Made by a program: the position numbers and the translations under genes. This document shows positions 25,667 through 29,941 of a DNA stretch of 35,997 nt, one piece after another. This DNA is from Acidimicrobiia bacterium. GTDB taxonomy: Bacteria > Actinomycetota > Acidimicrobiia > UBA2766. The notes under the pieces are model-generated. The model searched no databases. It was given only the letters and a program-made list of their open reading frames with translations, and had not been told where the DNA came from. The stretch is from contig JAIBAC010000012.1 in NCBI GenBank assembly GCA_019695375.1, forward strand, positions 1 through 35,997, in the 5' to 3' direction. How positions within the stretch are numbered: the stretch's first letter is position 1; each line of letters opens with the position of its first letter.

Positions 25667-27310
25667 ATGACAGCCGCCGTCCGCTCCCCATCGCCTGGCC
25701 TGCCCAAGCTGCGGGCACGCTGGCTCGGCCGCGTCGGCTACCGCGAGGCGTGGGACCTCCAGCGTGCGCTGTTCGACGCCCGTGTGCGTGACGAAGGCGA
25801 GGACTACATGCTCCTCGTGGAGCACCCCCACACGTACACGTGCGGGCGGCGCACGGACCCGGCCCACCTGCTGCGCACGCCCGAGGAGTACGCGGCGCTC
25901 GGTGCGGAGGTCGTCGACGTCGACCGCGGCGGTGACGTCACCTACCACGGACCCGGCCAGCTCGTCGTGTACCCGATAATGCGCCTCGGCCGTCCCGACG
26001 TCGTCGCCCACGTCCGCAGGCTCGAGGAGCTCGTGATCGCGACCCTCGCCGGATTCGGGATAGTGGGCGAACGTGTCGACGGCTTCACCGGCGTCTGGGC
26101 CGGCGGCGCCAAGGTGTGCCAGATCGGCTGCCGCGTCACACGTGGTGTGACCATGCACGGCCTCGCCCTGAACGTGGCACCCGACCCCGAGTACTGGCGC
26201 CACATCGTGCCGTGCGGCATCGAGGACTGCTCCGTCACGTCGATCGCGGAGCTCACGCACGAGCGCATCGACGTCGCCACGGTCGCCCGTGCCCTGCTCG
26301 AGCAGGCTCGGGCCACGTTCGGGCGCGACGTCGACTTCTGCGGTGAGGCGTGGCCGCGCTCGCGCCCGCGCCGTGGTGCGTCGATCCCGGTCGCGGGCGT
26401 GCGCAGCCTGCGGGCTGCGGCCGTCGAGGCAGGCCCCGACGTCAGGGCGCAGGCACGCGGACGTCCCTCGTGGCTGAAGCGACGCGCGCGTCTCGCCGAC
26501 GCCGGGTTCGTCGAGCTCAAGGCCCTCATGCGCGGGCTCGACCTGCACACGGTGTGCGAGGAGGCGGGCTGCCCGAACATCTACGAGTGCTGGAGCGAGC
26601 GCACGGCCACGTTCATGATCCTGGGCAAGGACTGCACCCGATCGTGCGGCTTCTGCGAGGTCGACACCGCGAAGCCGCTCCCCGTCGATCCCGCCGAACC
26701 CGAGCGGGTCGCGGATGCCGTGGATGCCATGGACCTCGAGTACGCGGTGCTGACCAGCGTCGCACGCGACGACCTCGACGATGGCGGGGCGGCGGCCTTC
26801 GCCGCCTGCATCGACGCGATCCGGCGACGCCGGCCTGGCTGCGAGATCGAGGTGCTCGTACCCGACTTCAAGGGTGACCACGCTGCCGCCACCGTGGTCT
26901 TCGACGCACGGCCCGACATCTTCAACCACAACCTCGAGTCGGTTGCCCGCCTCCAGCGCCTCGTCCGGCCTCAAGCCGGCTACGCCCGCAGCCTCACCCT
27001 GCTCGCACGTGCCAAGCGCGCGGGGCTCGTCACCAAGTCCGGGATCATCTGCGGGATGGGTGAGACGGAGTCCGAGGTCGTCGAGGCGATGGCCGACCTG
27101 CGCGCCGTCGGCTGTGACATCCTCACCATCGGCCAGTACCTGCGACCTTCCGCCAGGCACCTCCCGGTGCATCGCTGGGTGGAGCCGGCGGAGTTCGACC
27201 GCCTCGCCGCCACCGGCCGTGATCTCGGATTCGCGCATGTCGAGTCCGGTCCGCTCGTGCGATCGAGCTACCACGCCCGCAGCGCGGCAGCATCGGGGCG
27301 CCGGCTTTGA
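25667..27310 (+). CDS. lipB-lipA: Fused octanoyltransferase-lipoyl synthase (LipB-LipA)
   Basis: One uninterrupted 547-codon frame encodes both steps of de novo lipoate assembly. Residues 1 to about 228 are LipB, which moves octanoyl from ACP to a lipoyl domain: RGGDVTYHGPGQLVVYPI, K149 in GGAKVCQIG and the thioester cysteine C183 in IVPCGIEDCSVTS. Residues about 229-264 form a basic, alanine-rich linker. Residues about 265-547 are LipA, a radical SAM sulfur-insertion enzyme: C297, C302 and C308 (auxiliary cluster, CEEAGCPNIYEC), C323, C327 and C330 (CTRSCGFC), and R532-S-S-Y535 near the end. All catalytic residues of both parts are present, so a bifunctional enzyme is expected. LipB and LipA are normally separate neighbouring genes. 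The M24 gene overlaps the stop in TTGA. A sequencing error joining two genes is unlikely because linker and frame are smooth. Confidence 0.93.
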   Translation: MTAAVRSPSPGLPKLRARWLGRVGYREAWDLQRALFDARVRDEGEDYMLLVEHPHTYTCGRRTDPAHLLRTPEEYAALGAEVVDVDRGGDVTYHGPGQLVVYPIMRLGRPDVVAHVRRLEELVIATLAGFGIVGERVDGFTGVWAGGAKVCQIGCRVTRGVTMHGLALNVAPDPEYWRHIVPCGIEDCSVTSIAELTHERIDVATVARALLEQARATFGRDVDFCGEAWPRSRPRRGASIPVAGVRSLRAAAVEAGPDVRAQARGRPSWLKRRARLADAGFVELKALMRGLDLHTVCEEAGCPNIYECWSERTATFMILGKDCTRSCGFCEVDTAKPLPVDPAEPERVADAVDAMDLEYAVLTSVARDDLDDGGAAAFAACIDAIRRRRPGCEIEVLVPDFKGDHAAATVVFDARPDIFNHNLESVARLQRLVRPQAGYARSLTLLARAKRAGLVTKSGIICGMGETESEVVEAMADLRAVGCDILTIGQYLRPSARHLPVHRWVEPAEFDRLAATGRDLGFAHVESGPLVRSSYHARSAAASGRRL

Positions 27311-29000: not shown

Positions 29001-29667
29001 GCGTCGCGGCCGGCACCGCGGCCTCGAGGCCTGCATCGTGGTCCTGCTCGTCGTGGCCGTGGTCTCGAGCGCGTGCACCCAGGGTGTGCCCGAGGGTCGT
29101 GTCGACGAAGCTGCGTCGGAGGCGAACCCGCCGGGCACGGGACAGACGGGTGGCGCCGGCGACCGGACGCAGTCTGGGACCGGGGACACGAGCACGATCG
29201 CGGTGACCACGGCACCGCTTGGTAGACCGGCGACCAACGCCGGCAACATCTGCCGCGGCCGTGCCGACAGCTTCCTGCCCGACGCGGCCACGGGATACAG
29301 CATCGACGCCAGCGGCGACATCTCGGGGATGCTGCCCCCGGGCGCCGTCGGCATCCAGAGCGCAGGTGGCGCACTCGTGCGGCGCAACGGCGATCGCGCC
29401 GAGGGTCTCGTCTCGGCCGTCGTGTTCGACGAGCAGCCGGCCCTGACGGCAGTGGCGTCCTCGACGGTCGACATCCTCTTGCAGGCAGTGGGCGGCAAGG
29501 CAGACGTCACCGACACAACCGTCAACGGCTACGAGGCACGGACGACTTCCGGTCCCGATGGAGCGACTGTCGTCGCTTGGCCGGAGTGCCTCAACGTGTG
29601 GGTCCTCGTACGAGCGCCAGATGCTGCGATGGCGACCGACCTTGCGTCTCAGGCTCACAGCCCCTGA
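28993..29667 (+). CDS. Second predicted lipoprotein, low-complexity linker
   Basis: This 224-residue exported protein has basic N-terminus MAERRGRHRGLEA, hydrophobic core CIVVLLVVAVV and lipobox SSAC with C28. A Gly/Thr/Ser/Pro-rich linker (about 30-75) typical of cell-envelope tethers precedes a globular domain (SFLPDAATGYSIDASGDISG, VSAVVFDEQPAL) with two further cysteines (CRGRAD, WPECLN). ATG 28993 lies inside the previous gene, so the two are co-translated. Its 3' 77 bases overlap the antisense zinc-ribbon gene. Function unknown. Confidence 0.75.
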   Translation: MAERRGRHRGLEACIVVLLVVAVVSSACTQGVPEGRVDEAASEANPPGTGQTGGAGDRTQSGTGDTSTIAVTTAPLGRPATNAGNICRGRADSFLPDAATGYSIDASGDISGMLPPGAVGIQSAGGALVRRNGDRAEGLVSAVVFDEQPALTAVASSTVDILLQAVGGKADVTDTTVNGYEARTTSGPDGATVVAWPECLNVWVLVRAPDAAMATDLASQAHSP

Positions 29668-29884
29668 CCGTTCCGCGACCGGACTCGCCGCGGCCCGTCT
29701 CGCGGCCGGGGTCGCCGCGACCGGACCCGGCGACGTCGCAGCCGGCCTCGGGGGGCTGCGCGCGCAGCCTCTGCACACACCAGCCGCAGAAGCGTTCGGA
29801 CGGGTGGGGGCTGCGTCCGCGGATCTGCAGGTGACGTCCGCACCCGACGCAGTTGGGCGAGGCCTCGAAGCCGATGTGGGCCAT
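29591..29884 (-). CDS. Small double-CxxC (zinc-ribbon-like) protein under an SOS box
   Basis: This 97-residue protein starts at ATG 29884 behind an excellent ribosome site, GAGGAG, 6 bases upstream. The N-terminal half reads MAHIGFEASPNCVGCGRHLQ then SERFCGWCVQRL, so two CxxC pairs can bind one zinc. The C-terminal half is a Gly/Arg-rich low-complexity tail with few structured segments and may bind nucleic acid. No known family was recognised. It is preceded by a sigma70-like promoter containing an SOS box, so damage induction is predicted. The last 77 bases run antisense to the lipoprotein gene; the true stop is at 29591. Confidence 0.65.
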   Translation of the reverse strand: MAHIGFEASPNCVGCGRHLQIRGRSPHPSERFCGWCVQRLRAQPPEAGCDVAGSGRGDPGRETGRGESGRGTVRGCEPETQGRSPSQHLALVRGPTR

Positions 29885-29913
29885 GGGATCTCCTCGACGG
29901 TGGTCACGAACCC

Positions 29914-29941
29914 ACCATAGCCGAACATACGTTCGAGTCAA
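29914..29941 (-). promoter_or_regulatory. Sigma70-like promoter TTGACT-N16-TATGGT
   Basis: On the - strand TTGACT (29941-29936) and TATGGT (29919-29914) are 16 bases apart. The start point would be near 29907, giving a leader of about 23 bases that contains GAGGAG. This is one of few promoters in the window with a good -35 box. Confidence 0.7.
29921..29936 (-). promoter_or_regulatory. LexA (SOS) box between -35 and -10
   Basis: On the - strand the site reads TCGAACGTATGTTCGG. It contains the perfect palindrome CGAAC-N4-GTTCG and matches 11 of the 12 fixed positions of the mycobacterial SOS consensus TCGAAC-N4-GTTCGA. It fills the promoter spacer exactly, the classic place for LexA repression. 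Confidence 0.75.

Follow-up and report, generated by a model that had tools for sequence, protein, structure and literature searches.

Does a perfect palindrome of the SOS type, lying inside a promoter and directly ahead of a short reading frame, mark a genuine gene of the DNA-damage response, and what could its product do? This question is raised by a locus in the window, namely the whole stretch of DNA analyzed here (35,997 nucleotides), in which CGAACN4GTTCG has only one exact match, the box at 29922-29935. On the minus strand, TTGACT-CGAACGTATGTTCGGC-TATGGT is followed by GAGGAG, an ATG at 29884 and a stop codon ending at 29591 (Table 1). The palindrome CGAACGTATGTTCG occupies 14 bases of the 16-nt spacer between the two hexamers and is located 37 bp from the ORF start. 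In the promoter scan, TTGACT-16-TATGGT was the sole promoter-like site in 600 bp, with 0.0 expected in shuffled sequences. The earlier note, made from the letters of this DNA, had described the same promoter with a near-consensus LexA box in its spacer, followed by a 97-residue ORF with CVGC and CGWC. The letters and the promoter scan agree on this arrangement, and both cysteine pairs are in place; the box is indeed in the spacer, but, compared with the actinobacterial motif, it is perfect rather than near-consensus. A dienelactone-hydrolase gene (start 30030/30031) diverges from the same interval as the small gene, and a convergent plus-strand gene ends at 29667, overlapping the 3' end of the small ORF.

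Table 1. Features of the small-gene locus, with coordinates in the window.
Feature	Position	Strand	Basis
LexA operator (SOS box) CGAACGTATGTTCG, perfect palindromic half-sites	29922..29935	minus	exact motif match
-35-like hexamer TTGACT	29936..29941	minus	promoter scan
-10-like hexamer TATGGT, 16-nt spacer occupied by the SOS box	29914..29919	minus	promoter scan
Ribosome-binding site GAGGAG	29890..29895	minus	sequence
Small gene P0001, 97 codons plus stop, double-CxxC protein	29591..29884	minus	ORF, homologues P0005/P0006
First metal-ligand pair CVGC, residues 12-15, inside conserved CxGCGRxLQ	29840..29851	minus	alignment
Second metal-ligand pair CGWC, residues 33-36, inside conserved CxWCxQR	29777..29788	minus	alignment
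Gly/Arg-rich tail, residues 47-97, unconserved, predicted disordered	29594..29746	minus	coding scores, alignment, model

The identity of the motif was addressed in the host assembly (G000, 3.48 Mb), in which the exact box occurs 15 times and the reversed control 0 times; the corresponding numbers were 37 against 2 in G002 and 21 against 1 in G003, two other genomes of the same order. Gene calling and family scans placed the G000 boxes ahead of recA (L014), dnaE2 encoding the error-prone DNA polymerase (L008), and uvrA (L017), while lexA has two boxes (L015 and L016) and a LysM-like gene diverging from it. Boxes also precede genes for DUF222-type proteins in G000, of which L018 was confirmed by Pfam and L013 was recognized from its sequence alone. 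Some of the remaining exact sites fall within long genes and look like chance matches. Taken together, the boxes of G002 and G003 precede recA, lexA, dnaE2, uvrA, a UvrD/PcrA-like helicase gene, dnaB, and genes for DUF222-like proteins. Since the same motif fronts recA, lexA (twice), dnaE2 and uvrA, CGAACN4GTTCG is, judged by the genes behind it, the SOS box of this organism. The operator type, as well as recA, lexA and dnaE2 as members, is shared with the actinobacterial LexA/SOS regulon of Streptomyces venezuelae and Mycobacterium. LexA ChIP-seq in Streptomyces (the S. venezuelae set) gave the motif tCGAAC-N4-GNNCGa (PMC9380542), and, unlike here, no double-CxxC mini protein is found among the selected targets tabulated in that report.

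The earlier note had proposed looking for the box and the gene together in related genomes, and they are indeed kept together in three. Among the four genomes by which the order was sampled (G000, the host; G001; G002, JADZDR01, Acidimicrobiia bacterium SJ788; and G003, QWHP01, Actinobacteria bacterium ATB1), the gene is present in G000, G002 and G003, and G001 is without it. A perfect box lies upstream of the ATG of both homologues, at 34 bp in G003 and 21 bp in G002; with 21 boxes in G003 and 37 in G002, a given start would have one in the 60 bp ahead of it by chance with a probability of approximately 4e-4 and 6e-4, respectively, and these two box-gene pairs are not fully independent because both genomes belong to the same genus. 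Synonymous positions between G002 and G003 are saturated; therefore, the operator has persisted despite extensive sequence change. In G002 and G003 alike, the gene on the far side of the box runs in the same direction as the small gene and has its 3' end at or just before the box; it encodes a PD-(D/E)XK nuclease (PF12705) in G003, and its G002 counterpart is similar by eye. As this flank is only the 3' end of a co-directional gene, the small gene is the likely sole target of the box in the relatives, and this arrangement settles in its favor the ambiguity caused in the window by the divergent hydrolase gene. The gene neighborhood differs between the window and both relatives, and consequently the context gives no function. 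The SOS control predicted from these comparisons is well supported.

The box of G002 also lies inside a longer near-perfect palindrome (L024, 1429-1462) with 16-nt arms, CTAACGTGACCGAACA/TGTTCGATCACGTTAG, which directly precedes the ribosome-binding site. As RNA, it has a folding z of -4.5, with 0 of 200 shuffles folding as well, and neither the window nor G003 contains a comparable hairpin. It could terminate transcription of the nuclease gene upstream or act as a hairpin in the leader.

Whether the ORF is a real gene was judged from the substitutions between G002 and G003. Over 42 core codons, pS was 0.81 (saturated) and pN was 0.18, a pattern of strong purifying selection that identifies the homologues as a real, constrained gene. 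Comparisons involving the window copy showed no clear excess of synonymous change. At approximately 40% identity, this copy is the most divergent of the three, and the helix sequence of the relatives is lost from it; over codons 1-42 its GC3 is 0.88 and its codon scores are positive, turning negative after about codon 70. These features suggest that the window copy may be evolving fast or decaying. The interval 29591-29941, which the earlier note had assigned to the gene, does contain it, but the codons after about 46-70 probably form a poorly conserved or dispensable tail. On these grounds, P0001 represents a genuine, new and lineage-restricted small-protein gene of the putative SOS regulon, in a family known from three sequences of one order.

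The conserved part of the protein comprises approximately 45 residues. All four cysteines and the pattern C-x-GCGR-x-LQ...C-x-WC-x-QR are invariant in the three sequences, and the CxxC pairs are 15-17 residues apart (17 in the window protein and 15-16 in the two relatives). The conserved cysteines suffice for one metal site only, and a metal-binding mini-domain holding zinc through the four cysteines is plausible from this pattern. The AlphaFold model of the ATB1 protein (P0006, 64 aa), built from three sequences, has a mean pLDDT of 73; it places the first CxxC in a loop region and starts a helix (residues 41-63, pLDDT about 90) at the second CxxC, but its strands are no longer than single residues and its loop blocks have a pLDDT of 64. 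This weak model suggests a treble-clef-like fold in the order CxxC, hairpin, CxxC, helix. Thus, of the small zinc ribbon proposed earlier, the metal-binding mini-domain with two CxxC pairs in all three proteins is retained, but a treble clef is favored over a ribbon. The model of the window protein was poor (mean pLDDT 56). The Gly/Arg tail had been regarded as a functional feature, a view that is not borne out, as the tail is unconserved, has poor late coding scores and a pLDDT below 50, and is absent from the ATB1 protein; an important role for it is unlikely.

The earlier description of the protein as unrecognized has held up in profile searches: no family of Pfam, NCBIfam or PHROGs reached a meaningful score for the members. 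Double zinc ribbons share the CxxC pairs, but P0001 scored far below the curated cut-offs (13.0 bits against 27.3 for DZR, PF12773; 14.4 bits against 27 for DZR_2, PF18912), and only one metal site is present here. Foldseek matches were all weak (best E 0.49) and included DksA, T4 endonuclease VII and ribosomal proteins. The family profile was also compared by hhalign with two known types of finger, giving probabilities of 75% over 27 columns for the Fpg-type fingers of the host genome, which is suggestive only, and 36% for the DksA-type finger of the lineage. These comparisons are suggestive of a finger, but not of membership of either type.

Based on this evidence, our best explanation, to which we assign a probability of about 0.7, is that LexA represses the gene and that its product is a mini zinc-finger protein, probably a small binding adaptor. 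This figure is carried mostly by the regulatory part, LexA/SOS control, which alone is highly probable; for the adaptor role alone the odds are roughly even. In the undamaged cell, LexA bound to the operator between the -35 and -10 elements would exclude RNA polymerase; after DNA damage, RecA-stimulated self-cleavage of LexA would allow expression alongside recA, lexA, dnaE2 and uvrA. The product would fold in a treble-clef-like manner around one Zn2+ held by the two CxxC pairs, in the relatives with a basic helix after the zinc-held part, and would probably act as a small zinc-stabilized module that binds nucleic acid or a complex engaged in repair, replication or transcription. It may be a DNA-repair accessory factor, as suggested in the earlier note.

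A specific form of this explanation is a mini finger that binds DNA lesions like the zinc finger of Fpg/Nei and recruits or steers repair enzymes. Fpg scored better than DksA in the profile comparison and appeared among the weak PDB sequence matches, and the Fpg/Nei and IleRS finger (PF06827) shares a CxxC-x16-CxxC type layout and CG-x2-L/I-x-R. This likeness, however, rests mainly on the CxxC...CxxC layout, which is common to many unrelated fingers, and no PF06827 match was listed for any member; moreover, the present protein is free-standing with a helix after the last cysteine, whereas the Fpg/Nei finger forms the tail of a glycosylase. We consider this specific form doubtful.

Two other readings are less probable still. 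In the first, the protein is an SOS-controlled transcription regulator, a detached finger of the DksA/TraR type, which contacts RNA polymerase and remodels transcription in response to damage. The window protein matches the C-x2-C-x17-C-x2-C spacing of the DksA/TraR C4 finger and shares with it a glycine after the second cysteine, a proline, and the helix after the fourth cysteine; furthermore, DksA chains were among the Foldseek matches of lowest rmsd (2.2-2.4 A over 37-38 columns). These chains nevertheless had E values of only 1.9-3.0, PF01258 (DksA/TraR) was not among the matches listed up to E 10 for the three members, the relatives have the shorter spacing, and there is no coiled coil of the kind that enters the secondary channel, making a detached DksA-like finger improbable. 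In the second, the gene encodes an SOS-induced inhibitor of cell division or growth, that is, a checkpoint protein like SulA, SidA, YneA or DivS, which are small, lineage-specific and SOS-induced. Small lineage-specific SOS genes often code for such inhibitors, and the strong promoter and strict operator agree with this reading. To our knowledge, however, inhibitors of these types are membrane, LysM or FtsZ-binding proteins and not CxxC proteins. The present protein is small without an apparent hydrophobic segment, and the LysM-type protein divergent from lexA is a better candidate in the host genome; an inhibitor is unlikely here.

The notion that the box serves only the divergent hydrolase gene, with the small ORF being a chance or decaying frame, draws on palindromes working both ways, on the divergence of the window copy and on the non-coding statistics of its 3' half, but it is very improbable, because the promoter elements point towards the small gene, the relatives have the end of the nuclease gene on that flank, and constrained homologues exist. 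Nothing supports the toxin-like regulator of the earlier note: no partner gene, antitoxin or antisense partner was identified, and in the window and the relatives the layout is a single gene with no co-directional small partner called alongside, unlike a type II toxin-antitoxin system.

The distribution of the mini-finger family was searched outside the order. Profile searches of 395 genomes of the class and 397 genomes of the phylum, in which scoring covered only about 15 candidates per genome and may therefore have missed distant relatives, revealed no convincing member beyond the order, and neither did a search for the box-plus-CxGCG pattern in the 395 class genomes. GTDB contigs yielded only the two relatives, and plasmids gave no match. 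Confinement of the family to one order is thus provisional. Weak matches in other genomes (L020, L022, L023, L027 and L031) showed no box-linked homologue of this kind on inspection. A phage origin was rejected, with no relative in viral contigs; tblastn matches in phages (E 0.08-0.2) correspond to the N-terminal 'LQRRxGPSGLG..C' motif of Cas4-type exonucleases, and were judged to be chance since this motif is shared with the ATB1 protein only and is absent from the G002 and window proteins.

Exact SOS boxes in two further families of the class (L049 near 1565 and L051 near 1591; G118 and G100) separate a DnaQ/Cho-like exonuclease-type gene, assigned by eye, from a divergent gene for a small protein with two CxxC pairs (MAERYRCTGCGN...VECRWCG); this protein is unrelated to the family under study.

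Lineage-specific small genes occur in SOS regulons, and the biochemical role is known for few of them. We know of no double-CxxC mini protein in an actinobacterial LexA/SOS regulon. This short gene, with a clear operator in three genomes, makes a concrete candidate for an SOS effector based on zinc. More tentatively, it might be the first of a new SOS effector family: a free-standing mini zinc finger of one uncultured Acidimicrobiia order that would bind damaged DNA or RNA polymerase and modulate repair or transcription during the SOS response. The data also document a predicted LexA regulon (recA, lexA, dnaE2, uvrA, helicases and DUF222 proteins) in an uncultured actinobacterial order.

Several further observations were made on this regulon. 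Perfect SOS boxes are found more often ahead of DUF222-like (13E12-repeat-type) genes than ahead of any repair gene (L013, L018, L086, L108, L114, L116, L117, L119, L121, L123, L128, L132, L136 and L137), which suggests, with only one member matched against Pfam, an expansion of the DUF222 family under LexA control in this order. An unusual SOS target is dnaB, which has a box about 190-270 bp upstream in G003 (L139) and G002 (L112), its identity resting on an NCBIfam comparison of the G003 gene only. A conserved box (L107 near 2664 in G002, L138 near 1484 in G003) lies between two divergent uncharacterized genes; one encodes a short protein of ~130 aa that resembles a single-pass membrane protein, the other a small protein rich in W (MRGRTWQVVEVEAMWREW...), and neither gene fragment had a Pfam match at E 0.01. 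In the host genome, a perfect box (L004, position 1501, G000:C18) stands 56 bp ahead of an unrecognized short ORF (MGVMRVLGPEGDTRAVEWTREEQESIDAAEAVFRQLLEADRM...) that had no match in a Pfam search and is another candidate SOS gene.

Elsewhere in the window, a single 547-aa ORF on the plus strand (25667-27310) fuses a LipB-type octanoyltransferase to a lipoyl synthase, with the LplA-B_cat domain at residues 25-213 and LIAS_N plus Radical SAM at residues 266-477.
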